A stretch of 64,000 nt of DNA, taken from contig CADCML010000004.1 of assembly GCA_902802535.1 (NCBI GenBank), forward strand, positions 1 through 64,000. The letters run 5' to 3'. Within the stretch, counting starts at the first letter, position 1. Each line of letters opens with the position of its first letter. Position numbers and translations under genes: made by a program. Shown in pieces: positions 4,020 to 52,739 of the stretch. The notes under the pieces are model-generated. The model had not been told where the DNA came from, ran no database searches, and saw nothing but the letters and a program-made list of their open reading frames with translations. The stretch comes from an uncultured Bacteroidia bacterium (GTDB lineage: Bacteria; Bacteroidota; Bacteroidia; Bacteroidales; F082).

Positions 4020-4031
4020 GATGGAAAAACT

Positions 4032-4152: not shown

Positions 4153-4327
4153 GCCCCGTTCCAGCGGATTTGCAATCCGCTGGCCTTGAAACGGGGATTT
4201 GCAATCCCCTTTTGTGCGCAATCAATTCTCATTTTTTAATCGTTCAGCCTACAAAGGTAATACTTTTTATTTGATTTCGTATGCACTGCATTGAAAAACC
4301 ATTGTCGGATTTTCCCTCCGTGAATCT
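4153..4327. repeat. Composite island repeat, palindrome half (copy 2)
   Basis: It carries two palindromes: arms CCAGCGGATT/AATCCGCTGG at 4161-4183 and GGGGATT/AATCCCC at 4193-4209, both closed by TGC. The unit continues through GTGCGCAATCAA, a minus-strand TACCTTTG box and a conserved 60-bp AT-rich stretch. Near-identical copies lie at 6143 and 7591, with a truncated one at 5131. On the minus strand the element ends in GGAACGGGG, and toxin-like sequence begins at the very next base. Confidence 0.85.
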
Positions 4328-4402
4328 CTATTCCCTCACCACCTTATCCGAAAATACCATCCCGTCCTCCAAAGTGACGCGCAACAGATAAACACGGTGC
4401 GT
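4328..4402 (-). pseudogene. Fragment of a T9SS C-terminal sorting tail inside the repeat
   Basis: The minus strand translates as THRVYLLRVTLEDGMVFSD followed by KVVRE and a stop at 4330-4328. This matches the end of a type A T9SS sorting domain (pattern GvYlvrv...G....kkvv..). No gene reads into it: the preceding membrane-protein gene stops at 4406 in another frame. Degenerate versions of the same tail (VFSDKVVKE) are present in the copies near 6318-6350 and 7738-7760. The repeat therefore probably originated at the 3' end of a T9SS cargo gene. Confidence 0.6.
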
Positions 4403-4405
4403 ATT

Positions 4406-4807
4406 TTAGATTCTTCCTTGGTTCATCAGCATTTTTATGTATAATTCAGCGAAGAAGACAACAAATGGGAGTACCGCAAACAAGACCGCACCGATGTTCT
4501 TTTTCCCTTTCCACCTTGCCTCGTTTTTTCCCAATATCCTAACATATTTGTGTTTATGTACCAGCAAAAAATACAACAAGACAAAAGATAATACAAACAG
4601 AATTATTACACTTTGTATGCCAGGCTCAGAATAATTCTTGCTTGACGAGAAAAAAAAGAAAAAAGTACTCAAAATATCCAAATAGATGAACTCGACAACC
4701 ATAGATATAAAAATGATTGCCGTATATTCAGCTATAACCGCATTCCCTACTTTGACTTGAAAGTAGTAGTACTTGAAGAAAAGATATTCCAAAAATCTCA
4801 TATTCAT
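4406..4807 (-). CDS. Small membrane protein, putative immunity protein (paralogue of 7169-7558)
   Basis: 133 residues, about four membrane segments, starting MNMRFLEYLFFKYYYFQVKV. Its N-terminus and its C-terminal WKGKKNIGAVLFAV segment match the gene at 7169-7558, while the middle diverges. Both genes share the same upstream bases (ATCCAATATTGAAAACAG). The purine-rich AGAAAGGG touches the ATG at 4807 but is well spaced for the ATG at 4801, so translation may begin at residue 3. A broken toxin-like fragment ends 12 bases upstream. Function is unknown; an immunity role is inferred from context. Confidence 0.65.
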   Translation of the reverse strand: MNMRFLEYLFFKYYYFQVKVGNAVIAEYTAIIFISMVVEFIYLDILSTFFFFFSSSKNYSEPGIQSVIILFVLSFVLLYFLLVHKHKYVRILGKNEARWKGKKNIGAVLFAVLPFVVFFAELYIKMLMNQGRI

Positions 4808-4819
4808 CCCTTTCTGTTT

Positions 4820-5130
4820 TCAATATTGGATTTTACCCCATCCATTAAAACTGTCTGTGGCTACATCGATAACAAAATAGGTCATGCTTATTCCAAAACC
4901 AATAGGCCCCAAAAACCTACCACACCCATAGCGATATCAAGACCACCCTTGTAATAAACATTATAGTCTTGACCACCATGCTTATTATAATTTTACATTT
5001 CATAGCCCTCAACACTAGTTGATACCGCGAAACATGCTCTTCCCGCTAGCTTCGTAACTTTCAACATACCGACCCCTTCTTTCGTCAAGGCATTTACATA
5101 TTGAGCCTTCGACAGGTTAACCAATATCCC
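4820..5130 (-). pseudogene. 3' remnant of a toxin-like gene, with stop codon and frameshift
   Basis: Reading from 5130 the minus strand gives ILVNLSKAQYVNALTKEG, then VTKLAGRACFAVS, a TAA at 4995-4993, then KHGGQDYNVYYKGGLDIAMG. A frame change of one base in a T run near 4912 is followed by GPIGFGISMTYFVIDVATDS and NGWGKIQY, stop at 4822-4820. A glycine-rich hydrophobic stretch followed by TYFVIDxATxxFNGWG looks like the C-terminal end of Bacteroidota polymorphic-toxin proteins; this family attribution is tentative. The 5' side is cut exactly at the island repeat. Two lesions make it non-functional. Confidence 0.5.
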
Positions 5131-5165
5131 GTTCCAGCTGATTTGCAATCCGCTAAAGTTGAAAC
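5131..5165. repeat. Truncated, degenerate copy of the island palindrome
   Basis: GTTCCAGCTGATTTGCAATC followed by CGCTAAAG matches the first palindrome of the other copies, with one arm changed. The second palindrome is missing. It lies between the lipoprotein gene (ends 5175) and the toxin remnant (4820-5130), in the same relation to both as the full copies. Confidence 0.7.
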
Positions 5166-5174
5166 ATCGTTGAA

Positions 5175-5792
5175 CTATTCAATCTTTGAAACATTTTGAA
5201 ACTTCGTATAATATGCAATAATAAAATCCAGTTTCTCTTCGTCTGAAAGCGAAAAAAGGTAGTTGATAATGTCAAAATTGTAACAAATCCTTTGTGATGA
5301 TGCAAGACTTTCAACAGTTTGAATGTGTCTATTGATATATTTGTCCAATAAGTGTTGTGTTTGTGGCAACTGGTCAATAATTCCTTCTTCGGGAAAAGAT
5401 AAATCGCAAAAGAATGGAAAATCTATCATTTTTGAAAGAAAGAGCCAAGTACTGATGCTATCTTGCAAGTCCTGGCTAAAGGAATCCATAGTGAGATTGG
5501 CCTCAATTCTTGCAAAATAGTCGTGGCTATCAGCTAAACTATCGACTAGAAAAACAAACTTCCAGGGATTTGCTTCATAATTATCGGGCAAATCCATCTT
5601 CAAACGGTCATTGCAACCGAGCATGTATAAGGCAACTATTATTTCTTTTCTATAGGTGTGACTAAGAATTTTTGTGCTATTAGCATTATTACTATCTTTG
5701 GCAACATTATTCTCTATAATAACTTGATTGGCGGTATGATTACATCCGCAAAATAGAATAATGATTAAAATGTATACGATGTTTCTTTCCAT
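5175..5792 (-). CDS. Putative lipoprotein, possible periplasmic immunity protein
   Basis: The start at 5792 gives a lipoprotein signal (MERNIVYILIIILFCGC, lipobox cysteine at 17). An open frame continues 57 codons further upstream, but that part lacks a signal and overlaps the amidase fragment. The mature part (about 188 residues) is acidic and probably helical, with no recognised domain. It starts 4 bases after the stop of a broken muramoyl amidase gene, so it could be a periplasmic inhibitor protecting the producer from a cell-wall-cutting effector. That is inferred only from position and localisation. Confidence 0.6.
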   Translation of the reverse strand: MERNIVYILIIILFCGCNHTANQVIIENNVAKDSNNANSTKILSHTYRKEIIVALYMLGCNDRLKMDLPDNYEANPWKFVFLVDSLADSHDYFARIEANLTMDSFSQDLQDSISTWLFLSKMIDFPFFCDLSFPEEGIIDQLPQTQHLLDKYINRHIQTVESLASSQRICYNFDIINYLFSLSDEEKLDFIIAYYTKFQNVSKIE

Positions 5793-5796
5793 AGTT

Positions 5797-6142
5797 TTAA
5801 TAATAAATACATTTGTAAATTGCAGTTGGAGGTTTTGTACCATTATTGAGATATTGGTACACACCTGTTGCAATCTCACGACCGATAATGCTGTAATTGT
5901 TAATGATGTTGTTTCTATTCGCTTCACTACTAATTCCACCCATTTCCAGTAAAATTCCAGCACTACCCTTAAAATACTTTAATACACCTATGGTTTTAGT
6001 GCTAGGAATAACTGAATTATTAGCAGGTGTCATAATGCTCAAATTTTCCATAATATAATTTCCTAATTCAATTGAATTTTCTTGTTGCCATTTTAGACCA
6101 TTTCCTCTTACTTCATATACAGCAAAAGCTTCTTCACTTGAA
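5797..6142 (-). pseudogene. 3' fragment of an N-acetylmuramoyl-L-alanine amidase (Amidase_3 type)
   Basis: About 115 codons survive. VLKYFKGSAGILLEMGGISS then ANRNNIINNYSIIGREIATG match the end of zinc amidases of the Amidase_3 family, where the glutamate of the LLE.GfI motif is catalytic. The N-terminal part carrying the zinc ligands is gone: sequence immediately 5' is the island repeat, with the junction at 6142/6143. The ATG at 6210 lies in the repeat and cannot restore the enzyme. This is the clearest toxin-like remnant of the island, and it is coupled to a lipoprotein gene. Confidence 0.65.
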
Positions 6143-6460
6143 CCCCGTTCCAGCGGATTTGCAATCCGCTGGCCTTGAAACGGGGATTTGCAATCCCCTT
6201 TTGTGCGCAATCAACTCTCATTTTTTTATCGTTCAGCCTACAAAGGTAATACTTTTTATTTAATTTCGTATGCTCTGCATTGAAAAACCATTGTCGGATG
6301 TTCCCTCCGTGAATCTCTATTCCTTCACAACCTTATCCGAAAACACCTTCCTCAAAAGTGATGCATATCGGCCTTGTAAGGCTGTCGTACCACGGCAGCC
6401 GCATGTCGTCATGGCTGCAAAGGCGGCTGCCATGGTGTGAGAGCCCTACATTGATGAAAG
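6143..6460. repeat. Composite island repeat, full copy (copy 4)
   Basis: Palindromes with arms CCAGCGGATT/AATCCGCTGG at 6150-6172 and GGGGATT/AATCCCC at 6182-6198, the AT-rich centre, a decayed T9SS tail, and the hairpin with arms GGCAGCCGC (6394-6402) and GCGGCTGCC (6423-6431). It links the downstream end of the membrane-protein gene at 6469 to the amidase fragment. This copy shows that the palindrome half and the hairpin half belong to one element of about 315 bp. Confidence 0.85.
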
Positions 6461-6468
6461 CATCATAA

Positions 6469-6870
6469 TTATAAAAAGTGAAGCGCAACTAAAAAACTGG
6501 GCAAAGAAAGCAGCACAAACAAAACTACTAAAATTCCTTTGATATGTTTTAGTTTTTCTTCTTTGTATTTCTGGTCCAATAAATCGAAATGGTTCTTGTC
6601 GTTTTTTAGAATCTCATCTGAAAACAAGTAGGCTATCGCAAAAGGAATATCTGTAATGATTACATACCACACATTCATTTTGATTCCAAAGAAAGAAAGA
6701 ATAAATGTCTCGATAACCAACAGATAACAAAGCAATGACAAAGATAGTATTAGTAAACCCCAGTCGTAGCAACTCAAGATTAATAAGTACCCCGGTGCTT
6801 CTTCTATCCCAAATATTTTCCGATAGAACCTTGTTATCCGATAATACATGTATTCTAATGTAGTTTTCAT
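6469..6870 (-). CDS. Small membrane protein, putative immunity protein
   Basis: 133 residues starting MKTTLEYMYYRITRFYRKIF, with three or four hydrophobic segments and a charged middle loop (DEILKNDKNHFDLLDQKYKE). The family is not recognised; architecture and N-terminal tyrosines resemble the other three membrane proteins of the island, though identity is low. It starts 6 bases after the stop of the remnant at 6877-7098 and is followed by the island repeat. The likely role, protecting against a membrane-acting toxin, is inferred from this repeated gene order. Confidence 0.6.
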   Translation of the reverse strand: MKTTLEYMYYRITRFYRKIFGIEEAPGYLLILSCYDWGLLILSLSLLCYLLVIETFILSFFGIKMNVWYVIITDIPFAIAYLFSDEILKNDKNHFDLLDQKYKEEKLKHIKGILVVLFVLLSLPSFLVALHFL

Positions 6871-6876
6871 TTTTTT

Positions 6877-7098
6877 CTATTTAAACGGTTGGTACTCAAG
6901 TAAACCCGGGTTCATTCCGTTTTTCATCATTTCTACCATCGTATTACCATACTGAAAAACAAGCTCTCTCCCACCAAAAAACCAAAACATGCTTATCCAT
7001 GTACCTCCAGGTAATAATCCAATTCCTCCAAACAAAACATCAGCACTGTACATTATTTTGTCATTGATTGAAGTAGAGGTATAACACTGGACACTGGT
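6877..7098 (-). pseudogene. 3' remnant of a toxin-like gene
   Basis: An open stretch without a start codon at its head reads INDKIMYSADVLFGGIGLLP, GGTWISMFWFFGGREL and ends GLLEYQPFK, stop at 6879-6877. A TGA at 7101-7099 blocks the frame upstream. The glycine-rich hydrophobic pattern resembles the remnant at 4820-5130. It lies just before a small membrane-protein gene, as in the other units. Confidence 0.45.
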
Positions 7099-7168
7099 TC
7101 ATGTCTTTTCGTTGCTGTTTCGATTTAATGAATGCTAAGACATTTGTAAACCTATAATTCTCTTTGGT

Positions 7169-7558
7169 TTAAGGAGAAACCTTCATAGGGATGAACAATT
7201 CAACAACAAATAGTATAAAAGGCACTACAGCAAAAAGGACGGCGCCAAGATTCTTCTTGCCTTTCCATTCAGTTTCATGAATCTCAAGGACTTTCTTGTA
7301 TCTTCTTTTGTAAAGGAACATGAAAGAAAAACCAATAACTGCTATAGTAGTAACAGACAATATACTATTTGAGTTATATGAATCAGGAGAACTACCTGGA
7401 ATAAAAAAGTAGTAAAAATTGAAAATGTCAGCAAAAACAAACATGAATACGAAACCCATAAACAACACTGTGGAAAATGGGGCAACGTCACCATTGCCTA
7501 CTTTGACTTGAAAGTAATAGTATTTGAAAAATAGGTATTCTAAAAATCTCATATTCAT
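7169..7558 (-). CDS. Small membrane protein, putative immunity protein (paralogue of 4406-4807)
   Basis: 129 residues, about four membrane segments, beginning MNMRFLEYLFFKYYYFQVKV like its paralogue and ending with a matching WKGKKNLGAVLFAV region; the centre differs strongly. As in the paralogue, residue 3 (ATG at 7552) has the better-spaced purine-rich leader. Only the last few codons of the toxin-like gene (GKIQY, stop) remain between it and the repeat at 7591, so here the partner is almost completely erased while the membrane protein is kept. Confidence 0.65.
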   Translation of the reverse strand: MNMRFLEYLFFKYYYFQVKVGNGDVAPFSTVLFMGFVFMFVFADIFNFYYFFIPGSSPDSYNSNSILSVTTIAVIGFSFMFLYKRRYKKVLEIHETEWKGKKNLGAVLFAVVPFILFVVELFIPMKVSP

Positions 7559-7590
7559 CCCTTTCTGTTTTCAATATTGGATTTTACCCC

Positions 7591-7862
7591 GTTCCAGCGG
7601 ATTTGCAATCCGCTGGCCTTGAAACGGGGATTTGCAATCCCCTTTTGTGCGCAATCAACTCTCATTTTTTAATCGTTCTGCCTGCAAAGGTAATACTTTT
7701 TATTTGATTTCGTATGCTCTGCATTGAAAAACCCCTTATCCGAAAACACCTTCCTCAAAAGTGATGCATATCGGCCTTGTAGGGCTGTCGTACCACGGCA
7801 GTCGCTTGTCGTCGTAGCTGCACAACGGCGGCTGCCATGGCAAGAGAACCCTACAAGGGTTA
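7591..7862. repeat. Composite island repeat, full copy (copy 5), at island border
   Basis: Palindromes at 7594-7616 and 7626-7642, the AT-rich centre shortened by a deletion around 7730, and the hairpin region 7767-7862. The hairpin arm is partly mutated (GGCAGTCGC). A further small hairpin, ACCCT/AGGGT, closes the element. It abuts the 3' end of the SusD gene, so SusD marks the border of the island. Confidence 0.8.
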
Positions 7863-7916
7863 TAACTTCAAGTGCTTGTTCATCTTGCCCTTGGGCAACA
7901 GCCCAAAAACCCTCAA

Positions 7917-41853: not shown

Positions 41854-42189
41854 ATGGATACATTGAAATATAAAGGTTTCATCGGGAGCATTGAGGCGGA
41901 ATTGGACGACAATACGCTCTATGGAAAAGTTCTCGGTTTAGACAAAGGTACATTAATCACTTATGAAGGCAAAACCATCGAAGAACTGAAAGAAGACTTC
42001 ATCAATGCGGTGGACGACTACATAGCCTCTTGCAAGGAAAAAGGACTGCCTTTGCATAAGTCATACACAGGCAGTTTCAATGTCAGAATTCCTATTGATC
42101 TTCACGCCAAAGCTGTAGCCATGGCGCAAGAAGAAGGCATTTCCCTCAATGCGTTTGTAAAACAAAGTATTTATCGTGCTGTAATGTAA
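41854..42189 (+). CDS. HicB-family protein, apparently without a HicA partner
   Basis: 111 residues. The N-terminal HicB fold (YKGFIGSIEAELDDNTLYGK, LITYEGKTIEELKEDF) and C-terminal ribbon-helix-helix (FNVRIPIDLHAKAVAMAQEE) are those of the longer HicB antitoxins. No small HicA double-stranded-RNA-binding-like ORF is found on either side. The downstream gene, 13 bases away, is the broken Card1-like nuclease. Possible roles: orphan antitoxin, or transcription regulator of that gene. Confidence 0.8.
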   Translation: MDTLKYKGFIGSIEAELDDNTLYGKVLGLDKGTLITYEGKTIEELKEDFINAVDDYIASCKEKGLPLHKSYTGSFNVRIPIDLHAKAVAMAQEEGISLNAFVKQSIYRAVM

Positions 42190-42202: not shown

Positions 42203-43321
42203 ATGTCAAAAACCATCGTAAATATCATCGACAAGAGCAATCCATTGCCGGCTTATCTGTTCACCAAGGAGTATTTCGAGGACGGCGACGAGCTGCTGTT
42301 CATCTCCGCCGCAGAGGAAACCAATTGCATACCAGTGTTAATCACCAGTGTTAATCAAAGCGTTGGATATTGACGAAACGCTTGTGAAAACCATCGTCGT
42401 CAATCGGTATCAGGACAAGTTCCTCTATGAGCGCATCTGCCGCACCATCAAGGGAAATCTGATTCCCAACAAGCAATATTACCTTAATCTTGCAGGAGGT
42501 AACCGTTATATGACGCTCTCGGTGCAGCATGTTTTCGAGGAGTTCAACACCTTGTTTTTCTACACGCAAACCCGTGAGAACCAAGTCGTAAAGACCATCT
42601 TCGACCATAGCATTTACGATGATGACGATGAGGTGTTCCCCATCAAGCACCGCATGACGCTGAAGGAGTATTTCGGCCTCTACGGACTTGAAAGCGATGT
42701 GGACCAACCGCGCAAACAGGTGAAGGAAACGGCATTTTCGCAGCATTTGTTCACTATGTTCTCGCAAAACATGTTCAGTCGTGGCGACTATCAGGTGATG
42801 GAAACCTTGCGTGAGAAGTACCGCAACTGGAAGTTCCTCATCATTTCGCAAGTCGAGAACCCCGACAAGGACTACATGACAGCCATCCCAAACCTCAGCA
42901 AGTTCTTGGAATTCATAGGCTTCGTTCCCGAAAGACCAGGATCGCTGCAAAACTATGAAATCGAATACCTTACGGGAGGTTGGTTTGAGGAATATGTCTA
43001 TGCCTTGATTAAAGAGGTGTTGCAACCCGATGATATTGCTATGGGCGTACACATCTCCAACGGCAAAATCCGCCACAACAATGCAAGACCGGCGTGACGA
43101 GCGAAAGTCTATTCAACGAGATTGTCTACAAGGTTTGCGCCTTGAAAGAAGTGCTGCTTGGCAGCGGCAACTCCTACATTTTCTCGCTCAAGAAAGACCA
43201 CAAGGGAAACTGGAAAAAGACCGCGAAATACATGGGCATCACCTTCTGCGACTGGCTCAACCTGACCAAGCCAGAGAACCTGAAGGCTCTTTTGAAGTCT
43301 ATGGATAAGATTGCTTCTTAG
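42203..43321 (+). pseudogene. Card1/Can2-like DUF1887 nuclease, broken by a 13-bp duplication and a core deletion
   Basis: Three reading-frame pieces. Piece 1 (42203-42331) starts MSKTIVNIIDKSNPLPAYLF. A 13-bp tandem duplication (42332-42344 and 42345-42357) shifts the frame; removing one copy restores EETNCIPVLIKALDIDETL exactly. Piece 2 (to about 43080) contains a CARF-like domain with YYLNLAGGNRYMTLS and the family hallmark EIEYLTGGWFEEYVYALIKE. At 43075-43084 the sequence jumps from GKIRHNN straight to CKTGVTSESLFNEIVYK in another frame, losing the ELDV...VIE part of the PD-(D/E)xK nuclease core. Relatives are cyclic-oligoadenylate-activated nucleases of type III CRISPR systems; no cas gene or array is nearby. 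The gene is inactive as written. Confidence 0.75.
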
Positions 43322-43324
43322 AAT

Positions 43325-43446
43325 AAAACTTGCAAAACCTTCAAAACCATAAGTAGCGGCACGCAACCGCTTGCCGCTGGAAAGCAGCCGGTTGGCGTGC
43401 TTTCCTTTGTTAAATAAAGTTTTGTCAGTTTTGTGGGTTTTGTGAT
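43325..43446. repeat. Structured TIR element, copy 1
   Basis: Left end AAAACTTGCAAAACCTTC and right end GTTTTGTGGGTTTTGTGA are imperfect inverted repeats. Inside are hairpin I (AGCGGCA 43355-43361 with TGCCGCT 43372-43378, loop containing CAACCG) and hairpin II (GGAAAGC 43379-43385 with GCTTTCC 43399-43405, loop AGCCGGTTGGCGT). The two loops are complementary (CAACCG/CGGTTG). Related copies lie at 44344 and 52574. The right end supplies the stop codon of ldcA. Confidence 0.8.
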
Positions 43447-44327
43447 AAAACAACAACATCCTGATTAATAATCATTTGAGTTGTAATCCCAAAGGTTAGA
43501 ACCCTGTTATCATCAAAATGCCCAGCAGGGAAACCGAAGCAAACAGGATAATCGTATTCAGAAACGGCCTCAGCAATCACTTCCTCGGCGGTTTGGCCAA
43601 AGGGATGCGTATTGTCTTTGATTTGGGTCAGGCCGCCCACGATGAGGCCTTTCAGATGAGCCAGTTTTCCAGCGCGTTTCAAACAGTGCATCATCCTGTC
43701 AATGTGGTAGATATACTCGTCAACTTCCTCTATGAAGAGGATTTTTCCGTCTGTTTCGGGAAAAATATCGGAGCCGTTCATACCCATTAGGACGGACAAG
43801 TTTCCTCCAACGATTTCACCTTCCATTTTTCCTAAACGATTCAACGGATTCGCGGGAAATTCATAATGCAAACATTTGCCCGTCAATGCGTTAAATAATG
43901 ACTGTTTGGCTACCTCTGTTTTGTTCGCAAAGTAAAAAGGCATGGACGAATGAAGCGAAGGAACGCCCAAACGTTGCAACTTGCCGTGAATGACCGTGCT
44001 ATCGCTGAAGCCCGCAATCCATTTCGGATGCTGCAAAAACTTGGTGAAATCCAACTTGTCAATGATACGGATGCCACCGTAGCCGCCACGAGCAAGCCAA
44101 ATGGCCTCAATTTCCTCATTGTCAAGGTATTCTTGAAAGACAGTCGCCCTAAAATCATCGTCGCCTGCAAAAATATGATGAACAGCGAAAAGCCTGTCAT
44201 CATAAATGGGGACAAATCCCTGCCCTTCCAACCACTGGATGGCAAACGACATCTCGTCGGGCGTGATGCAACGCGCCGGCGCTGCAATGGCCACTTTCGA
44301 ACCTTGTTTCAAATAGGGAATGGTCAT
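43425..44327 (-). CDS. ldcA: LD-carboxypeptidase (muramoyltetrapeptide carboxypeptidase, S66)
   Basis: 300 residues. Removes the terminal D-alanine from murein tetrapeptides during cell-wall recycling. Nucleophile serine in IAGFSDSTVIHG, glutamate in KILFIEEVDEYIYHIDRM, and histidine in CFGFPAGHFDDN form the Ser-Glu-His triad of family S66. The last residues (LSQNPQN) are encoded by the terminal inverted repeat of the adjacent element, which also provides the TGA. Similar elements flank the gene on both sides. Confidence 0.9.
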   Translation of the reverse strand: MTIPYLKQGSKVAIAAPARCITPDEMSFAIQWLEGQGFVPIYDDRLFAVHHIFAGDDDFRATVFQEYLDNEEIEAIWLARGGYGGIRIIDKLDFTKFLQHPKWIAGFSDSTVIHGKLQRLGVPSLHSSMPFYFANKTEVAKQSLFNALTGKCLHYEFPANPLNRLGKMEGEIVGGNLSVLMGMNGSDIFPETDGKILFIEEVDEYIYHIDRMMHCLKRAGKLAHLKGLIVGGLTQIKDNTHPFGQTAEEVIAEAVSEYDYPVCFGFPAGHFDDNRVLTFGITTQMIINQDVVVLSQNPQN

Positions 44328-44343
44328 GCTTCTTTTCTTTTTG

Positions 44344-44493
44344 TCACAAAACCATCAAAACTTTCAAAACCCTAATCTGCAACGTCACCCAACCAGGTTC
44401 CGTTGCAAAGCCGACTTGTCGGCTTAGGGAAAAGGAGCCAGTTGGCGACTTTTCTTGTCCAAAATAGTTTTGTTGGTTTTGTAAGTTTTGTGA
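44344..44493. repeat. Structured TIR element, copy 2
   Basis: Left end TCACAAAACCATCAAAAC and right end TTTTGTAAGTTTTGTGA pair as inverted repeats of about 27 bp. Hairpin I: GCAACG 44379-44384 with CGTTGC 44401-44406, loop with CCAACC. An extra hairpin, AAGCCGAC/GTCGGCTT, occupies 44408-44425. Hairpin II: GAAAAG 44429-44434 with CTTTTC 44449-44454, loop GAGCCAGTTGGCGA. Loop complementarity CCAAC/GTTGG is kept. Confidence 0.85.
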
Positions 44494-44498
44494 TGCCA

Positions 44499-46013
44499 TT
44501 ATTCCTTAATAATTTCGTCTTCGTCCAAAGCCTCGCTGTCATATTTTACTTCCTTGCCTTGTTCGTAGGTGACAGTAAAATAGAGTTCGCCAGTTTCCAG
44601 ATATTTCTTCCAATCGCCGTGCTTCACACCTGCAGCATAGCTTTGAATTTCACGTAATTTGCCGTTGTCATAATAGAATAGATGCTCACCGTCAGGATAA
44701 CCAGCATTAAAAGTACCTCGGAAAGCCATTTTGTCGTTGTCGTAATAGGAAACCCATTCGCCCACTTGCTTGTCGTTGCGATATTCACCCTCCGAACGCA
44801 TGTCGCCAATTTCTTCCTTCCATTTGCCGTTTTTCATGCCATCGAAATAGGTGCCGCTCACGATGAGGTTGCCCTTGGCATCGTATTCCTTGTATGGACC
44901 ATTGTGCTGCCCTTTGTAGAATTGTTCCTCAATCTGTTTCTGTCCGTTGTCGTGATACCAAATCCAAACACCATCAGGTTCTCCTTCCTTGTAGTTACCC
45001 ACTTCTTGAAGCTTACCGTTATGATAGTAGAACTTCCATTCGCCTGAGCGCAGACCATCAACAAACATACCTTCGGCACGCAAAGTGCTGTCAGCAAAGA
45101 ATTCCTTGTATTCGCCCTGACGTTTGCCATCAGTACCCACAATGCCCTCACCCACCAATACACCTTTCTTGTAAGTCTGTGAATTAATGACATTGCCTTC
45201 CTCATCGAACTCGCGCCAAATACCTTCACGCTTGCCATCGCGGAACGAAGCCTCGCGCCGCACCCGACCATTGGGATAATATTCATGCTGCACGACAAGT
45301 GGCTTCATGTCGCTTTCAAGCACTTGCTCCACATCATCAATGTATTTGGTAATCTTTTTCAAGTTGCCTTTTTCGTCGTATTCCTTGTAAAAACCTTCGC
45401 GCAATCCGTGCTTGTAGTAACATTCGGTATGCAGGCTCCAGTCATCGAAAAATGTTTTCCAATAGCCATGACGCTTGCCTTCACTGTCGTAACGGTTCAA
45501 AACCTCACGGGTCATAATGAAGCCTTTGCGATAGGTGATGATTTCACGCAAAAGTCCCGTGGTGTCAAAAACAGGCGAAATGCCTTCTTCCAAACCATTT
45601 TTGAAGGTTATAGTCTGTATGAGACGACCCTTTCGATCATAGCGGTGACCTTCGCCTTGTTTCACATCGTTGACAAATGGTTCCTCCAAAATGTCCTCTT
45701 TACCATAGGTAAAGCGCGAACCGTTTTTCAAATCATTCTTATAATTGATAATCAAAGTGGTGTCGCCAGATTCCGAAAAAAACATCCAAGTGCTGTCCAA
45801 AAGAAAATCCGTGCGCTTTCCAATGGACTTCAGTTGACCATTCTCGTAATAGGTCTTCCAAAGGCCGTCGGGCTTGCCGTCGCGTAGTGTCCCTTCACTC
45901 GACAATTGTCCATCAGGATATGTATATGTCTGATACTCAGTCTGCGAACAAACTTTGTGACAAAACAACATACTCAATATGGCTATCCCTATAATGCTTA
46001 CGATTCGTTTCAT
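44499..46013 (-). CDS. Exported MORN-repeat (YwqK-like) protein
   Basis: 504 residues with a signal peptide (MKRIVSIIGIAILSMLFCHK). About fifteen MORN-variant repeats follow, each with the pattern G.w..YY..G.l...g.y..G (for example GEWKFYYHNGKLQEVGNYKE). Bacteroidota have many such proteins, automatically named toxin-antitoxin YwqK family antitoxin; that name has little functional basis. It is likely periplasmic or on the cell surface. Expressed alone from a -7 box at 46040-46033. Confidence 0.85.
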   Translation of the reverse strand: MKRIVSIIGIAILSMLFCHKVCSQTEYQTYTYPDGQLSSEGTLRDGKPDGLWKTYYENGQLKSIGKRTDFLLDSTWMFFSESGDTTLIINYKNDLKNGSRFTYGKEDILEEPFVNDVKQGEGHRYDRKGRLIQTITFKNGLEEGISPVFDTTGLLREIITYRKGFIMTREVLNRYDSEGKRHGYWKTFFDDWSLHTECYYKHGLREGFYKEYDEKGNLKKITKYIDDVEQVLESDMKPLVVQHEYYPNGRVRREASFRDGKREGIWREFDEEGNVINSQTYKKGVLVGEGIVGTDGKRQGEYKEFFADSTLRAEGMFVDGLRSGEWKFYYHNGKLQEVGNYKEGEPDGVWIWYHDNGQKQIEEQFYKGQHNGPYKEYDAKGNLIVSGTYFDGMKNGKWKEEIGDMRSEGEYRNDKQVGEWVSYYDNDKMAFRGTFNAGYPDGEHLFYYDNGKLREIQSYAAGVKHGDWKKYLETGELYFTVTYEQGKEVKYDSEALDEDEIIKE

Positions 46014-46032
46014 TTGCTTTCTAAATCCGCGT

Positions 46033-46040
46033 CAAAATTA
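46033..46040 (-). promoter_or_regulatory. -7 box of the MORN-repeat gene
   Basis: The minus strand reads TAATTTTG 20 bases before the ATG. No clear -33 element. Confidence 0.45.
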
Positions 46041-46570
46041 GACATTTTTCGCCGAATAGCGACATCCTCTCCACAAGATGCCGAAAATTTGCCTTCCGAC
46101 TTATGAACACCTTTATCAATATCATTTCTTTTTTTAGATTTTAAGATTGATATTAATTAAGGTTTGTTATGGATGTTGATAAGCTTGTGAATTGGTTGAA
46201 AACTTTTCAATAAAGTTCTTGCATTAATGGTTTTCGATTTGAGGCATCATTTTCGGAAAAAATTAAGGGTTTATTTTTCAGTCGGATTAATGCGTTTTCG
46301 GATACCCGTTGAAAAATGAAAAATCGGGTAAAAATGACCTCGAATTTTTGAAATAATGTTGATTTTGGTGTCCAGATAGGTCAAAAAAGTGTTGATTAAT
46401 TCTTCCCTGATTTTTATGCACCCGAATGAAAAAGTTATCAACAAAATTTCTGTTGATAACTCATGATTTTATTGATTATCAAAATATTATTCAAAAATTG
46501 TAGACTTTTTGTAAGCGGATAAACTGTTCAGAAATAATGGGATATAACCCTAACGAACAGCGAAAATATG

Positions 46571-46578
46571 TACTTTTG
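46571..46578 (+). promoter_or_regulatory. -7 box of rpiB-lutB
   Basis: TACTTTTG, 27 bases before the rpiB ATG; -33 box not evident. A TTATCAACA motif lies between it and the start codon. Confidence 0.45.
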
Positions 46579-46604
46579 CCAATCGAATTATCAACAGCGC
46601 AAAA

Positions 46605-47060
46605 ATGGAACAGATTATCCCCATAGCGAGCGACCATGGCGGCTTCGAAATGAAGCAATTTTTGATTGAAAAACTGAAGGAATCCGGCTATACAGTCGAC
46701 GATTTTGGCACTTATAGTAATGAAAGTGTCGACTATCCTGACTTCATTCATCCCTTGGCTTCAGCCATCGGGATGGGAAACTATCCTTTGGGTATCATTT
46801 TATGCGGCAGTGGCAACGGTGCCCAAATGACAGCCAACCATCATCACAACGTGCGCGCCGCCTTATGTTGGAATGTGGAATTGGCCAAACTGGCCCGTCA
46901 GCACAACAATGCCAATATCCTTGCCTTGCCTGGACGTTTTATTTCGAATGAGTTGGCTTGGGAGATGGTGCAAGCTTTTTTGAGCACTGATTTCGAAGGT
47001 GGTCGTCATACGAGAAGAGTTGATAAAATTGAATCCATTGAAAATCAAGACAATGAATGA
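46605..47060 (+). CDS. rpiB: Ribose-5-phosphate isomerase B
   Basis: 151 residues. Interconverts ribose-5-phosphate and ribulose-5-phosphate. N-terminal IPIASDHGGFEMKQFLIE, active-site cysteine in LGIILCGSGNGAQMTANHH, and the HNNANILALPGRFIS segment are the RpiB/LacAB signature. Its end overlaps the start of lutB by 8 bases. Confidence 0.95.
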   Translation: MEQIIPIASDHGGFEMKQFLIEKLKESGYTVDDFGTYSNESVDYPDFIHPLASAIGMGNYPLGIILCGSGNGAQMTANHHHNVRAALCWNVELAKLARQHNNANILALPGRFISNELAWEMVQAFLSTDFEGGRHTRRVDKIESIENQDNE

Positions 47061-48417
47061 ACCTAATATAGAATTCAAACAGGGTTGCGAAAAGGCTTTT
47101 GACGAGGAACATTGGCAGAAAATCAACTACAGCACGGGTTGTTTTGAGAGCAGTTTTGCCAAAGGCAAGGTGAATTACCGCAATCTCGACTTGGAAAAAC
47201 AACGTGCCTACACTTTGCGCAACAAATCGATGTTGGGTTTGGAGAAACTGTTGGTCGATTTTGAGACGCATTTCAGCGAAAATGGCGGCAAAGTGCTTTG
47301 GGCTCGCAATGCCGACGATGCCTTGACCATGATTTTCGACCTCATCTGCAAGGAGAAAGCCAACGCCATCATGCGCTCCAACTCCATGGTGCTCGATGAA
47401 ATCGGACTCAACGGTTTCTTGGAGCGGAAAAACGTCCGCGTAGTGGAAACCGAAGTGGGACGTTTCATTTTGCATGAAGGCCAGCAGAAACCCTATCATC
47501 CTTTGGCACCTTCCATCCACCTCTCGAAAGAGGAGAACAATGCCATTCTGACGGGACAATTCAAGTTGAAACCCGACAGCTCCGCCAAGCAGATGATCAA
47601 TTTTGTGCGTCATGAGGTGACTATTGAATCAAAAGAAGTGCCTATTTGCATCACAGGGGCCAACTTCCTGCTTTCCGATGTAGGTGGCGTGGTGTTGACG
47701 GAAAACGAAGGCAACATCTTGAAATCCACTTCCATAGCAAAGGTTCACATCGTTGTGGCTGGCATCGCCAAAATGGTGCCGAGCATCGATGATTTGAGCG
47801 TGTTGTTGCCATTGTTGTCGCTTCATGCCTCGGGACAGAGCATGACGGCCTGCAACACCATCACTTTCGGTCCGGCCAAGACGGGCAACGGTCCGGAGCA
47901 GGTGTATGTCATCTTATTGGACAACAACCGCTCGGAGCTGCTTTCGCACGAGAAACAACGCAAGGTGATGTCGTGCATCCATTGTGGTGCATGTGTGAGT
48001 GTGTGTCCCGTGTACAAGAACATAGGCGGCTATTCTTACGCCACCAAACATATCGGTCCGATAGGCACGGTGATGACGCCCTTGATGGAAGGTTTGGAAG
48101 ACTACAATTACCTGAATTCCGCCTGTTCGCTTTGCAGAAAGTGTGTTGAGATTTGTCCTGTCAAGATACCGTTGGACGACTTGATTATTGAAAACCGCCA
48201 TTTGGCCATCATGAAAAAGACCAACAATTCAAAGTACGATGCCTTGCTGAGAGCCATGATTTGGCACTGCAAGTCGCGGAAAAAGATGGACAGTCCGCTG
48301 TTTTTCAAAAAGTTGGAATTGAAACGCCTTTTTGGACTGCTATGGGGCAACAACAGACCCTTGCCTGAGTTTGCTTCCAAGTCGTTCAGCCAGCAATGGA
48401 AGGAAAGGAATCTTTAA
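47053..48417 (+). CDS. lutB: Lactate-utilisation iron-sulfur protein LutB/LldF
   Basis: 454 residues from ATG 47053; an upstream in-frame ATG at 46999 lies inside rpiB. LutB-type N-terminal domain (IMRSNSMVLDEIGLNGFLE, VGGVVLTENEGN) and two 4Fe-4S clusters (CIHCGACVSVCPVYK; CSLCRKCVEICPVK). It is part of the LutABC complex that oxidises L-lactate to pyruvate. lutA and lutC are not adjacent, although LutC may have been split elsewhere. Its 3' end overlaps the convergent reverse transcriptase gene by 32 bases. Confidence 0.9.
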   Translation: MNEPNIEFKQGCEKAFDEEHWQKINYSTGCFESSFAKGKVNYRNLDLEKQRAYTLRNKSMLGLEKLLVDFETHFSENGGKVLWARNADDALTMIFDLICKEKANAIMRSNSMVLDEIGLNGFLERKNVRVVETEVGRFILHEGQQKPYHPLAPSIHLSKEENNAILTGQFKLKPDSSAKQMINFVRHEVTIESKEVPICITGANFLLSDVGGVVLTENEGNILKSTSIAKVHIVVAGIAKMVPSIDDLSVLLPLLSLHASGQSMTACNTITFGPAKTGNGPEQVYVILLDNNRSELLSHEKQRKVMSCIHCGACVSVCPVYKNIGGYSYATKHIGPIGTVMTPLMEGLEDYNYLNSACSLCRKCVEICPVKIPLDDLIIENRHLAIMKKTNNSKYDALLRAMIWHCKSRKKMDSPLFFKKLELKRLFGLLWGNNRPLPEFASKSFSQQWKERNL

Positions 48418-49606
48418 ACTTATAGTATTCGTTCACCAGACTTTTGTAGCCCAATTCTTTAAGTCTTTCGTAATCGACTTTATAGTTGATTTTGTTGTGT
48501 CTTCCTGTGTTTAGGAAGCGAATGTTTTGTTGCAAGTAATGATCTATCTCCTTTAGACCCTCTGTCTGATTGATGACCGGAAAGAACCATCGTGACCAGG
48601 TAAGTGTTTCAGGATCATCGCTCTCAAAAAACTTGCGGTTGAAATAATTGATGAGCGCTTTCATTGCCTTCTCCGAATCCAAGCCTTTCTTGTTTTTCCA
48701 GCGTAACAAGGCTCGGGCTTGGCGCGAAATCTTACCTTTCATCTTCTTCTTGGTGGCTTCCGAGATATCGATGTCATGGCCATGGCATTTGAACCCCAAA
48801 AATTCGTAGGCTTCATTGGGAGAATACACTTTTTCCTTAGAGGAATTCACCTCCAACTGGTATTTTTTTAGGAAACCAAGCAATGTGGTTTTGTACTGTT
48901 CAAGCGTCTCAAAATCAGGCGCAAACAAGATGATGTCGTCGGAATAGCGGGCGTAAACGATACCTGCATTGTGAAAATGCCAATCGACTTCTTTTAGATA
49001 AACGTCGGCCAAAAAAGGAGCTGTGGGTGTACCGGCCATCACGCCATGTTGTTCTTGGGTGACTACCTCATTGATTAATATATTGGGATTGGTCAGTAGG
49101 TTTTCGAAAAATTGATAAAGCAGTGGGTCGTCGGCGAGGGTTTCTTTCAGGATGGGTAGCAGAATAGGGATGGAAATAGAATTGAAATAGTCGTGGATGT
49201 CGAGTTTGTAGGCCCACATCTTTTGCTTGCGTACGGCATTGTTGATTTTGAAAACAGCATCATGGGCTTTCAAGCCACGGCGAAAAGCATAACAATTGGG
49301 TGCAAAATGGTCGTCATAGCGGTAAAGCTGGTGGGAAATAAGCTTCAACAATAGTATTTCATCAGGTGGAAAACTATACACCACACGTTTTTTGCTTGTT
49401 CCCATCTTGTTGATGATTTTCTTTTGTGGAATGCCCAAATCTTCGCCTTTTGCGACTTTCGTAGCTAAAGGCAAATATTGCTCATATCCAACAAAATCGT
49501 CAGCCTCTTCAAATTCACGCCAATTGAAACGTCCTTTTTTGAGGCGGTAAGCCAAAAACCCTTCCCAAACCTCTTGCTGGGTTAGTTGTGTAATGATGCT
49601 TTCCAT
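48386..49606 (-). CDS. Free-standing reverse transcriptase of unassigned group
   Basis: 406 residues from ATG 49606 (MESIITQLTQQEVWEGF); the longer frame from 49717 reads through structured upstream DNA. RT motifs: KLDIHDYFNSI (catalytic aspartate 136), HGVMAGTPTAPFLADVYL, and YARYSDDIILFA (YxDD at 221-224), then EFLGFKCHG. There is no maturase/HNH domain as in group II introns, no VTG motif of retron RTs, no SQ motif of diversity-generating retroelements and no fused Cas1 or nitrilase. It could belong to one of the unknown groups that include defence RTs, but this cannot be settled by eye. A small unknown gene precedes it. Confidence 0.85.
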   Translation of the reverse strand: MESIITQLTQQEVWEGFLAYRLKKGRFNWREFEEADDFVGYEQYLPLATKVAKGEDLGIPQKKIINKMGTSKKRVVYSFPPDEILLLKLISHQLYRYDDHFAPNCYAFRRGLKAHDAVFKINNAVRKQKMWAYKLDIHDYFNSISIPILLPILKETLADDPLLYQFFENLLTNPNILINEVVTQEQHGVMAGTPTAPFLADVYLKEVDWHFHNAGIVYARYSDDIILFAPDFETLEQYKTTLLGFLKKYQLEVNSSKEKVYSPNEAYEFLGFKCHGHDIDISEATKKKMKGKISRQARALLRWKNKKGLDSEKAMKALINYFNRKFFESDDPETLTWSRWFFPVINQTEGLKEIDHYLQQNIRFLNTGRHNKINYKVDYERLKELGYKSLVNEYYKFKDSFPSIAG

Positions 49607-49756
49607 GGGAAAAAGGGAAAAGGGGAAAATTTTGACGTGGCACATTGCCACGAGACGAGAGGGTACCTTGTCAGGTTGCCTGCAAAACCGAGAAATGAAT
49701 GTCAAGGCTGCCTCCATCGCAGGCGCGGCATTGCCGCATCCCCTTTTCCTGTCTTT
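49607..49756 (-). other. Intergenic segment with four consecutive hairpins, possible RT-associated RNA
   Basis: Between the unknown gene (stop 49757) and the RT start. Hairpins: GCGGC/GCCGC at 49725-49737, CTGC/GCAG at 49708-49722, CAGG/CCTG at 49672-49682 and CGTGGC/GCCACG at 49636-49652. The first and last share a GGCAATG core on the minus strand. RT systems often use a neighbouring structured RNA as template or primer; that role here is speculative. Confidence 0.4.
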
Positions 49757-50230
49757 TTAGTTCAAAAACTTGTAAATGCGATTGACTACATAGTCCTTTT
49801 TATTGGGCAACTGGGTGTAGAAGTAAATATAGGGAATGCCTATTTTCTTGGCATACATTCTCGAAATCAAGTACTTGACATTGATTTCGTGACAATGACC
49901 TTTGCCAATCATCACTACGCCCTTGATGCCACTTGGTGTCTCCAAGACAAAATTGTAGGGCTGGCCCCATTCTGCTTTATAAGCTTGCTTGGGACGATCC
50001 ACGTAGAGTTTGAACTCGTCATTGGCATAACCTACTATGTCTTGCACGGGCACATCTTCTCTAAAAGAGTATTGTGCAAAGTCTGTAATCAGGATTTCCC
50101 TGAAATAAGCTTTCCATTCCTCATCGGTGCGTTCGGGAACAACAGGTCTGACAGGCTGCTGCTGTTGAGGTTTCGAATCTTCTTTTACAGAACTAATGAT
50201 ACTTTTGATGATGTTTACTAGTAAACCCAT
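49757..50230 (-). CDS. Uncharacterised 157-residue protein upstream of the RT
   Basis: No family recognised. The N-terminus is helical and polar with a glutamine run (MGLLVNIIKSIISSVKED, then PQQQQPVRP). The rest looks like a mixed alpha/beta domain (EFKLYVDRPKQAYKAEWGQP, VVMIGKGHCHEINVKYLIS, IPYIYFYTQLPN). The pattern of an acidic residue, a beta hairpin and K/H residues loosely recalls nuclease-like folds, but I cannot assign catalytic residues. It lies 150 bases before the RT gene on the same strand, so the two may be co-transcribed. Confidence 0.65.
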   Translation of the reverse strand: MGLLVNIIKSIISSVKEDSKPQQQQPVRPVVPERTDEEWKAYFREILITDFAQYSFREDVPVQDIVGYANDEFKLYVDRPKQAYKAEWGQPYNFVLETPSGIKGVVMIGKGHCHEINVKYLISRMYAKKIGIPYIYFYTQLPNKKDYVVNRIYKFLN

Positions 50231-50259
50231 AATTCGATGGTTTTTTGATTATTATGGCG

Positions 50260-50267
50260 CAAAGGTA
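50260..50267 (-). promoter_or_regulatory. -7 box of the unknown gene-RT unit
   Basis: The minus strand reads TACCTTTG 30 bases before the ATG at 50230. No -33 TTTG. Confidence 0.5.
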
Positions 50268-50370
50268 ATAAAATGTTTTAATTTAGGTAGCTTTTAGCAT
50301 AAAATTGCAATATTTTCAATATGAAAGTTGAGATACCCCTAACTTTGCTCATCTACTTAAAATTCTTTTC

Positions 50371-50406
50371 AAAAAAACCCCGCCACGGCAATCGCAGCGG
50401 GGAAAA
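50371..50406 (-). terminator. Rho-independent terminator of the EF-G-like gene
   Basis: On the minus strand CCCCGC and GCGGGG pair, followed by seven T, about 30 bases after the stop codon. Confidence 0.88.
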
Positions 50407-50437
50407 AATGCAATACTTATGAAAAAATACAAAAACT

Positions 50438-52462
50438 TTATTCTTCTTCTTTTTGGCTTTCTTCGTACTCCTTCAGCAGGCGGTTCTGTACGTCGGTAGG
50501 CACTTGCTGGTATTCGGCATACTTCATCGTGAAGGTGCCACGGCCAGAGGTCAACGAGCTGAGGGTGGTCGAATAGCGGTCCATCTCGGCCAACGGCACC
50601 TTGGCGTGGATGGTTTGGTAGTTGTGGTCGCTGTCCATGCCCATGACGATGGCGCGGCGGCCTTGCAGGTCGGTCATCACCGAACCCATGAGGTCGGCGG
50701 GCATTCGCACGTCAAGGTCGTAGATAGGCTCCATGATCTTCGGGCCAGCGTTCTTGAAGGCTGCGCTGAAGGCCATACGACCGGCAATCTTGAAGGCCAT
50801 TTCGTTGGAGTCGACCGGGTGCATCTTACCATCGTAGATGTAGCAGATGATGTCGCGGGCGTAAGAACCTGTCAACGGACCTTGCTCCAAGCGCTCGTTC
50901 ACACCTTTCAGGATGGCGGGCATAAAGCGGGCATCGATGGCACCACCGACGACGCAGTTGGCGAAGATGAGCTTACCGCCCCAAGGCAGTTCGTACTCTT
51001 GCTTGTCACGCACCTGCAATTCGCTCGGGTCGGTGTAACCCTCGAAGTAAGGAGCCAGTTGCATGTGCACCTCACCGAACTGACCGCTACCACCGGACTG
51101 TTTCTTGTGACGGTAGCTGGCACTGGCGCTCTTGGTGATGGTTTCACGATACGGAATCTTCGGCGCAGTGGTCTCGATGGCGAGTTTGTACACGTTGTCG
51201 AAGTACCATTTCAGCGTGTTGAAGTGATATTCGCCCTGGCATTGCAGGATGTTCTGGCGCAGCTCGCGCGACATGCCGCTGATGACGGTCGGGTCGGTCT
51301 TGTGCATATCATTGAGGATGCTGCCAAGCTTTTCGTCTTCCTGTGAGTTGACGGCTTTGACGGCAATCGAGAAAATCGGAGTCGGGAACGGAATCTCTTC
51401 AAAGGTGGCTTCGGCGGCCTTGGCATCGACCAAAGAATCACCGATGCGGCCGTCCTTCAGTTTGATGGTGCAGATGATGTCGCCAGCGTTGACTTTCTCG
51501 ACTTCTTCACGGTTCTTGCCGCGGAAGACGAGCAACTGTGACAAACGTTCCTTGTTGCCCGAGCGTGGGTTGATGAGGTCTTGGCTCTTGCTGACCGTGC
51601 CACCATAGACGCGCATCCAAGCCACATCGCCGAGGTTTTGCTCAGTCGTGACCTTGAAGATGAACAGGGCGGTTGGGTCGTCGTTGCTGTTGTGGAACTC
51701 TTGTCCGTTCTTGGCTTTGATGGCCGGCATGTCGGCAGGCGACGGGCAGGCGTTAATGAGGAATTCCATCAGACGGGTGACACCCACGCCACGTTTGGCA
51801 GCGCCGCAAATGACGGGGAACATCTCACGGTTGACGATACCGAGGTGGATACCGCGTTCCATGTCCTCTTCACTCAGGGTCATTTCTTCAAAGAACTTCT
51901 CCATCAGGGCCTCTTCGCCTTCGGCAGCGTGCTCGATGAGGTTGTTGTGCAGCTCTTCGGCCTTAGCCATTTCTGCGGCGGGGATGTCCTGGATTTCAGG
52001 GGCTCCGTTGCCGTTCTTGAAGACCAACATCTTCATCATGATCAAGTCGATGACGGCGTTGAAGTCTTCACCGGCGTTGACGGGATATTGGATGGGCGTA
52101 ACCTTGTCGCCGAAATATTCTTTCAGTTCGCGGATGGTGTTGTCGTTGACGGTGCAAACGGCCATGTCGGCTGCATAGAGGCACGAAACGATGTCGCCCG
52201 AGAAGTCGCTGAAACCAGGGGTATCCAAGATGTTGATTTTCTTGTCGTTGTAGATGGTGTACAACATGGAAGCGTTCACCGAAATCTGACGTTCCATTTC
52301 GATGGGACGGTAGTCGGAAACGGTGTTTTTCTCGTCGGTGCTACCTTTTCTGTTGATGAGCTTGCCTTCGAAAAGCATGTTTTCAGCAAGCGTGGTCTTA
52401 CCCGATTTAGCTGCGCCGATGAGGGCAACATTACGGATGTCTTTTGTCTGGAATTCCTTCAT
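50438..52462 (-). CDS. EF-G-like translational GTPase lacking the G4 region
   Basis: 674 residues, a paralogue group of elongation factor G common in Bacteroidota. P-loop GAAKSGKTTLAEN (17-27), G3 ILDTPGFSDF (79-87), domain II-V features (YRHKKQSGGSGQFGEVHMQL, YDGKMHPVDSNE, PLAEMDRYSTTLSSLTSGRG) are intact. Between AVCTVN (about 106) and DNTIRELKEYFGDK the usual GVEVGT...NQLD segment of roughly 35-40 residues is absent, in frame. It contains G4 (N-[KQ]-x-D), which gives guanine specificity, so the protein probably cannot bind GTP normally. Either a real in-frame deletion or an assembly loss. Confidence 0.85.
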   Translation of the reverse strand: MKEFQTKDIRNVALIGAAKSGKTTLAENMLFEGKLINRKGSTDEKNTVSDYRPIEMERQISVNASMLYTIYNDKKINILDTPGFSDFSGDIVSCLYAADMAVCTVNDNTIRELKEYFGDKVTPIQYPVNAGEDFNAVIDLIMMKMLVFKNGNGAPEIQDIPAAEMAKAEELHNNLIEHAAEGEEALMEKFFEEMTLSEEDMERGIHLGIVNREMFPVICGAAKRGVGVTRLMEFLINACPSPADMPAIKAKNGQEFHNSNDDPTALFIFKVTTEQNLGDVAWMRVYGGTVSKSQDLINPRSGNKERLSQLLVFRGKNREEVEKVNAGDIICTIKLKDGRIGDSLVDAKAAEATFEEIPFPTPIFSIAVKAVNSQEDEKLGSILNDMHKTDPTVISGMSRELRQNILQCQGEYHFNTLKWYFDNVYKLAIETTAPKIPYRETITKSASASYRHKKQSGGSGQFGEVHMQLAPYFEGYTDPSELQVRDKQEYELPWGGKLIFANCVVGGAIDARFMPAILKGVNERLEQGPLTGSYARDIICYIYDGKMHPVDSNEMAFKIAGRMAFSAAFKNAGPKIMEPIYDLDVRMPADLMGSVMTDLQGRRAIVMGMDSDHNYQTIHAKVPLAEMDRYSTTLSSLTSGRGTFTMKYAEYQQVPTDVQNRLLKEYEESQKEEE

Positions 52463-52523
52463 TTTTTATCTAACTAGCTAATTATTAAATATTTATTTCT
52501 CGCGAAGAATACTATAATGGACG

Positions 52524-52553
52524 CAAAATTACGAAAAAACCTAATATCCTCAA
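52524..52553 (-). promoter_or_regulatory. Promoter of the EF-G-like gene
   Basis: The minus strand has TTG at 52553-52551, 19-bp spacer, and TAATTTTG at 52531-52524, 61 bases before the ATG. Confidence 0.55.
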
Positions 52554-52573
52554 CCAAAATATATATATTATTG

Positions 52574-52739
52574 TCACAAAACATTCAAAACCCACAAAAC
52601 TTTTACTAAGAAAGTCGCCAACTGGCTCCTTTCTAACGCATCCTTTGGTTGCAGTTCAAGCATGACAACGACAACTCGGTTGGGAGTCGTTGTCATGCAT
52701 TATAATAATTTGGTTTTGAAAGTTTTGTAGGTTTTATGA
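52574..52739. repeat. Structured TIR element, copy 3 (inverted relative to copies 1 and 2)
   Basis: Ends TCACAAAACATTCAAAAC and AGTTTTGTAGGTTTTATGA form the terminal inverted repeats. Hairpin II: AGAAAG 52609-52614 with CTTTCT 52629-52634, loop with GCCAACTGGC. Hairpin I: GCATGACAACGAC 52660-52672 with GTCGTTGTCATGC 52686-52698, a perfect 13-bp stem, loop with CGGTTGGG. The loops keep the CCAAC/GTTGG complementarity. It occupies most of the gap between the EF-G-like and PfkB kinase genes. Confidence 0.85.

Follow-up and report, generated by a model that had tools for sequence, protein, structure and literature searches.

Are the short folded repeats that lie between genes in an uncultured Bacteroidia bacterium (Bacteroidales, F082) kept in place as structured RNA, or are they copies of something that moves? 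We addressed this question in a window of 64,000 nucleotides, the whole stretch of DNA that was analysed (assembly GCA_902802535.1, contig CADCML010000004.1, positions 1 to 64,000), where a sequence-only reading had located three copies of such a repeat. All three are present, at 43324-43445 (+), 44344-44493 (+) and 52574-52739 (-). The repeats, called here the CAAAAC family after the box in their arms, are probably non-autonomous copies of a small mobile element, akin to hairpin-forming doublets of repetitive extragenic palindromic (REP) sequences (REPINs) and to miniature inverted-repeat transposable elements (MITEs), with a GxxExxY-family protein as the putative mobilising enzyme. The sequence-only reading was right to see a structured repeat family, and it missed both the long form that carries this gene and the probable mobile nature of the repeats.

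The gene-bearing form of the repeat

We parsed 142 distinct copies from the window and loci L069-L239, dispersed over 53 sites as grouped by flank similarity. Four of the 142 (L087, from the genome of the window, L170, L191 and L230) measure about 640 bp, with a 144-aa open reading frame (ORF) between hairpins I and II. In the two that were scanned, L087 and L230, this ORF matches the GxxExxY family of the PD-(D/E)XK superfamily (TIGR04256, E 1.8e-37, 128.3 bits against a curated cut-off of 35; PF13366, E 8.6e-36, 123.3 bits against a curated cut-off of 22). The PD-(D/E)XK residues E31, D71, E81, K83 and Q95 are invariant in 16/16 sequences, and the gene is under purifying selection, with a median ratio of nonsynonymous to synonymous substitution (dN/dS) of 0.044 over the 20 usable of 45 pairs from 10 sequences; L247, where the protein match begins at residue 6, was excluded. 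Among 60 genomes of the genus, 11 have a GxxExxY orthologue of at least 79% identity; they make up 11/24 of those that bear the repeat and 0/36 of those free of it.

The same hairpins and boxes surround the GxxExxY gene at two unrelated sites. At site A (L240-L247) it lies upstream of a gene starting MAKLKTWVKAARPRTVLLSF, which we take to be menA-like; at site B (L248-L250) it lies between a gene end reading ..NPDGY and a gene start reading MKGIVLAGGSGTRLYPITKG, presumably galE-like and rmlA-like, respectively. Among 30 site-B loci, three are filled, one holds a decayed gene-less copy (L341), five are bare, with junctions of 10-31 bp (L346, L348, L354, L356 and L357), and 21 continue into other DNA or a different gene. 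One copy at site A that lacks the gene (L133) comes from an assembly (G007) that has the gene at site B, and comparison of L133 with the four full-length copies at site A reveals an internal-deletion form of the kind that MITEs present. The short copies look like internal deletions of the full-length element. MITEs with a parent insertion sequence, such as BrickBuilt of Porphyromonas gingivalis (PMC4596501), likewise combine terminal inverted repeats, an internal-deletion derivative and an intergenic position. No target-site duplication was seen by eye in the CAAAAC family, whose short spacers have diverged, and BrickBuilt is built on a 23-nt minisatellite, which the CAAAAC family is not.

To our knowledge, the GxxExxY gene does not belong to a recognised transposase family. 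The protein has a weak likeness to Cas4/RecB-like nucleases: its best E value against Cas4 profiles is 3e-4, and it matches a PHROG with the description CRISPR/Cas associated at E 0.009. No cas gene is among the features displayed at up to about 1.5 kb from six annotated GxxExxY genes on plasmids. Rpn (transposase_31, PF04754) proteins are also PD-(D/E)XK proteins implicated in gene mobility (PMC5350276), but they belong to another Pfam family and no repeat partner is mentioned in the consulted part of that paper. A PDB sequence search with the GxxExxY protein gave no match, and of five stretches matched in viral contigs none was confirmed to hold GxxExxY. In the open-licence literature consulted, we found no tie between GxxExxY (TIGR04256/PF13366/PDDEXK_3) and any repeat; the examined passage of PMC8934634 is unrelated, and those of PMC3733652 and PMC10969869 do not contain the name.

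Architecture and folding of the copies

The half-unit of the family is an RGTT-tipped hairpin followed by a spacer and then GTTTTG-nnn-GTTTTG-nnn-GTTTTG-TGA, and each copy consists of two half-units in inverted order, so that on one strand the left hairpin reads AACY and the right one RGTT. The symmetry of the halves is plainest in two copies (L185:6622-6746 and L197:3573-3700) in which both hairpins are of the GCC-RGTT-GGC type and the orientation can be read either way. A solo hairpin II without arms lies just past a stop codon at L095:2475-2515 (G000:C29:15985). In the genome of the window (3.7 Mb in 139 contigs, 85% complete), 26 two-armed copies are found in the window and the stretches around search matches, a count over a match list rather than the whole genome; copy 1 as a query gives 25 matches at E<=0.001 there, itself and partial matches included.

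The right-arm pattern with at most one mismatch occurs in 24/60 genomes of the genus and in none of 24 genomes from other families of the order; a pattern search of 60 genomes found relatives in 16, all in the same genus. Since the box is the same sequence when read backwards, a reversed-pattern control matches in repeat-bearing genomes too, at most seven times on each strand. Named records with Bacteroidales, Bacteroidia or 'bacterium F082' in the title yield at least 114 stretches with the pattern, and where the titles of repeat-bearing records name a source it is a ruminant one (rumen, abomasum or reticulum); RUG in these titles presumably stands for rumen. The sequence-only reading knew of no named family with this layout, and we found none either: Rfam gave no match at E<=1 over 43250-44550, and a gathering-threshold scan of the whole window, which is the scan that covered copy 3, gave none at the copies. 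Searches of the open-licence literature for the box sequences returned nothing related, and those for Bacteroidetes MITEs or intergenic repeats returned no matching repeat, as judged by title or the start of the abstract.

In all three window copies the arms are three CAAAAC/GTTTTG boxes at a 9-nt period with free triplets between them. Copy 1 has the left arm TAAAAC-TTG-CAAAAC-CTT-CAAAAC (43324..43347), whose outermost box is degenerate and without the outer TCA, followed by hairpin I (43355..43378, tip AACC at 43365-43368), hairpin II (43379..43405, tip GGTT at 43390-43393) and the right arm GTTTTG-TCA-GTTTTG-TGG-GTTTTG-TGA (43419..43445), all on the plus strand. Copy 2, also on the plus strand, runs from the left arm TCA-CAAAAC-CAT-CAAAAC-TTT-CAAAAC (44344..44370) through hairpin I (44378..44407), a predicted extra hairpin (44408..44425) and hairpin II (44427..44456, tip AGTT at 44440-44443) to the right arm GTTTTG-TTG-GTTTTG-TAA-GTTTTG-TGA (44467..44493), and a relative (L239) lacks the repeat at the gene junction that holds this copy. 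Copy 3 lies on the minus strand, with the left arm in element orientation TCA-TAAAAC-CTA-CAAAAC-TTT-CAAAAC (52713..52739), hairpin I with a predicted 13-bp stem (52660..52698), a short hairpin with AAAGGATGC (52635..52656), hairpin II with an AGTT tip (52609..52634) and the right arm GTTTTG-TGG-GTTTTG-AAT-GTTTTG-TGA (52574..52600). By eye, its short hairpin resembles a GCATCC..GGATGC hairpin 3' of the GxxExxY gene in full-length copies.

Hairpins I and II, which the sequence-only reading had described, are present in each window copy, but in the three predicted folds GCC/GGC closes the RGTT tip of hairpin II into a tetraloop, and the loop of hairpin I is predicted as a tetraloop in copy 1, a 6-nt CAACCA loop in copy 2 and a 13-nt loop with CCAACC in copy 3. 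The predicted fold of each copy is better than those of 200/200 dinucleotide shuffles (z -6.4, -7.3 and -7.4 for copies 1, 2 and 3).

We compared the stems across 170 pairs of orthologous copies whose cores are similar in length; these pairs are not independent events. Where both partners of a stem pair have changed, they still pair in 97/124 cases in hairpin I (430/1155 when partners are slid by 1-3 nt) and in 63/84 in hairpin II (308/684 when slid), consistent with the proposed selection for a folded strand. Changes on a single side break the pair in 156/237 and 123/193 cases, respectively, so that the stems are constrained rather than rigid. A further proposal, that the copies are a structured RNA or single-stranded DNA in which loops I and II make a kissing contact, is very improbable. 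Tips could be parsed in 132 of the 142 copies (10 unparsed), and fully complementary AACC and GGTT tips occur in 81 of them, next to 24 with AACC:AGTT, nine with AACT:GGTT, five with AACT:AGTT and 13 others. This complementarity follows from a copy being an inverted pair of one half-unit, the tips show no association with each other (Fisher p 0.33; p 0.50 with a cruder parse), and the hairpin II tips are predicted to fold as closed tetraloops.

The arms carry a second signature, measured in the CAAAAC family. Right arms keep the 3-nt spacing in 141/142 copies and left arms in 102/142, with another 38 spaced 3,4. The triplets vary freely, yet letters able to pair across the folded arms are avoided: at the inner triplets (L2:R2) 20/306 letters could pair against 96 expected from shuffles, and at the outer ones (L1:R1) 95/420 against 157.6. 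With one copy per site the figures are 10/111 against 36.1 and 32/156 against 58.5, and 0/5000 shuffles were as low. The opposed couplings are the strongest in a joint fit (L2:R2 -2.0, L1:R1 -0.92), and the same-arm ones are weaker (-0.45 and -0.40). Pairing in a shifted register (L2 = R1) was considered and dropped (joint-fit J 0.30 with an interval spanning 0; 45/114 against 39.3 with one copy per site, not significant). Between orthologous copies, a changed inner mismatch became a pair in 16/212 cases and an outer one in 108/290, which indicates that the rule is strict for the inner triplet only. In our reading, the avoidance of pairing means that selection keeps internal loops open in a folded strand; recognition of a duplex alone is not expected to give it. 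Together with the covarying stems, it points to selection on the folded strand. The opposed-triplet rule is a clean and unusual signature, namely selection against pairing inside an otherwise paired stem.

Box arrays around other GxxExxY genes

GxxExxY-family matches over cut-off occur in 80/149 genomes of the order and 99/198 of the phylum, and one named GxxExxY gene lies between fabD and fabG in Sphingomonas. In the genus, most of the remaining GxxExxY genes (L251-L269) lie between inverted repeats of like design built on other boxes, for example ACGAAT, ACAGAT and ACAGAA. Framing was measured by a blind flank score, with the 99th percentile of 600 control windows (13.6) as threshold. At or over it are 44/57 GxxExxY ORFs, a set that includes the CAAAAC type, or 32/45 without L240-L251; in this set L260 and L278 were dropped for want of an ORF by motif and L277 for a short flank. 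The order sample alone gives 17/28, and the phylum sample, scored under a looser ORF motif and with L335 dropped, 22/29, compared with 2/120 off-centre windows from the order, phylum and plasmid loci. A few of the scored repeats, for example at L280, L289 and L321, are not box arrays by eye, and at L290 the gene sits within long tandem arrays of box-bearing units of about 96 bp.

The boxes of the phylum sample are mostly CACRGAG/CACAAAG-like, with a 9-12 nt period. By coordinates, such arrays also lie away from the listed GxxExxY genes in two genomes (G280 and G330), and one or two are found in each of three others (G338, G396 and G241). None was found in the GxxExxY-free genomes G209 and G211. 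G305, where the arms of the GxxExxY genes have different letters, gave none either. Arm similarity tracks protein similarity over 57 loci with a scored inverted repeat under the looser ORF motif, L278 included, with a Mantel r of 0.37 (p 0.0005) and, for off-flank DNA, an r of 0.15 (p 0.009); on these sequence comparisons the correspondence between arms and protein goes beyond the genomic background. Within one genome (G148), the GxxExxY loci of two pairs match each other over 503 and 416 bp at 80-82% identity but hardly outside these stretches, and a pair in G047 shares 512 bp, with one side ended by the contig end. A possible recent pair in G135 (L367/L368) was left unused: it matches over most of both stretches and may represent overlapping contigs.

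Insertion habit and the nature of the element

For 131 of the 142 copies the gene context was counted with simple ORF calls, so that the figures are rough; 25 of these copies lie inside a crude call. Copies lie at a median distance of 5 bp from a gene 3' end (n=119); for gene 5' ends the median is 13 bp (n=93). Per site, 35 lie between co-directional genes, seven between convergent and one between divergent genes, with nine inside a crude ORF call, compared with 402, 86 and 105 adjacent ORF pairs, respectively, as background at the same loci. These distances, and the single divergent site among the 43 outside crude calls, would also suit a domesticated intercistronic RNA element, its copies kept at fixed sites for mRNA processing, stability or termination and its mobility a thing of the past, as would the covarying stems, the strong predicted RNA folds and the orthologous positions across species. 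We regard this explanation as unlikely, given a full-length form that has the same ends and a conserved nuclease gene, the presence of that gene at two sites, the absence of the repeat pattern from 36/60 members of the genus, and the orientation of the copies between co-directional genes, which agrees with that of the genes at 25 sites and is opposite at 16. The mobile-element and RNA-element readings do not exclude each other.

In the window, a gene for a Card1-like CARF (CRISPR-associated Rossmann fold)/endonuclease protein (42348-43321, +; PF23400, with PF09002 below cut-off) adjoins a HicB-family protein (41854-42189, +). The frame of the Card1-like gene ends at 43097, with a likely continuation, by eye, in another frame to a stop before copy 1; the gene looks interrupted or mis-sequenced. 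An elongation factor G-like protein of 674 aa (50438-52462, -) adjoins copy 3. The window also holds a reverse transcriptase gene (48386-49717, -; RVT_1, E 7.4e-23), whose 5' end is overlapped by a match to the Rfam RT-5 RNA (49623-49728, -; 77.8 bits), and, at 3448-7870, a second group of dispersed repeats, which measure 89-209 nt and contain strong inverted repeats (families D1-D4, D10, D19; I3, I6, I9).

Could the repeats be REPINs moved by a Y1 transposase of the REP-associated tyrosine transposase (RAYT) type, with GxxExxY as a passenger gene? Like REPINs, described as inverted hairpin doublets (PMC3116915), the repeats are short, extragenic inverted hairpin doublets, many per genome. In REPIN/RAYT systems a nuclease gene is bordered by its own repeat units (PMC3116915 and PMC8266576), as is the case here. 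Y1_Tnp matches, moreover, occur in 24/24 repeat-bearing versus 18/36 repeat-free genomes, a correlation that the mostly larger size of the repeat-bearing genomes may explain. However, the inner gene, found in 4/142 copies, encodes a PD-(D/E)XK GxxExxY protein and not an HUH Y1 transposase, and the arms are 9-nt box arrays in which no GTAG-type tag was noticed. Among 18 Y1 places from 10 genomes, a part of those listed (in seven of the 18 the Y1 ORF was not found by motif), none has a box arm or is bordered by these repeats, and there is one 10-mer match to hairpin II (L429). Several of these places have different palindromes of their own: at L417, L419, L421, L429 and L430, in the same genus, the Y1-transposase-like genes come with different inverted palindromes (e.g. 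GCCCCGAAGGGGC) and are probably a separate REP/RAYT system. The Y1 explanation is thereby weakened, and we consider it improbable; the identity with IS200/IS605-type elements that the sequence-only reading had left room for fares no better, the family-matched ORF inside the element being GxxExxY.

A GxxExxY-driven mobile element remains the explanation we favour, and several observations, the Y1 correlation included, weigh against it. No close GxxExxY orthologue is present in 13/24 repeat-bearing genomes, six of which are at least 95% complete (G018, G022, G031, G033, G072 and G081). No target-site duplication was seen by eye in filled and empty pairs or in paralogues, where the short spacers have diverged, and no transposition event was observed in the compared loci. 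None of the copies is recent: the closest full-length paralogue that copy 1 has within its genome is 78% identical, and many copies are orthologous between species. AlphaFold2 models of three GxxExxY sequences (predicted local distance difference test 58) were too poor for a fold search. As to framing, the order and phylum loci are best-scoring matches rather than a random draw, 13/57 and 7/29 loci fall under the threshold, two counted as over it (L263 and L303) sit at 13.6, and of the named plasmid loci 2/7 exceed it (Bernardetia L331 and Bacteroides finegoldii L332). Finally, the avoidance of pairing is not seen by eye in other box families, several of which have arms with equal spacers on both sides.

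If the repeats are dependants of the gene-bearing form, the GxxExxY protein would recognise the box arrays and would cut or resolve the folded ends, so moving long and short copies alike, with most insertions falling in the few bases that separate a stop codon from the ribosome-binding site of the next gene. The unpaired triplets would form 3x3 internal loops that, more speculatively, might mark the substrate for the nuclease or, alternatively, might protect the hairpin against RNase III or hairpin nucleases of the host. For the family at large, we rate the chances as even that a widespread and unrecognised class of single-gene mobile elements in Bacteroidota and beyond has GxxExxY proteins as its transposition enzymes; in this class, terminal inverted repeats made from boxes of 6-8 nt at a 9-12 nt period would be served by a lone PD-(D/E)XK (Cas4/RecB-like) protein acting on a folded strand with its loops kept open, and short copies would be REPIN-like dependants. 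Because a protein family of unclear role is tied to a defined DNA substrate, its function becomes directly testable. We know of no PD-(D/E)XK protein that acts alone as a transposition enzyme, and if GxxExxY moves these elements, such a lone protein would be a new kind of transposition enzyme.

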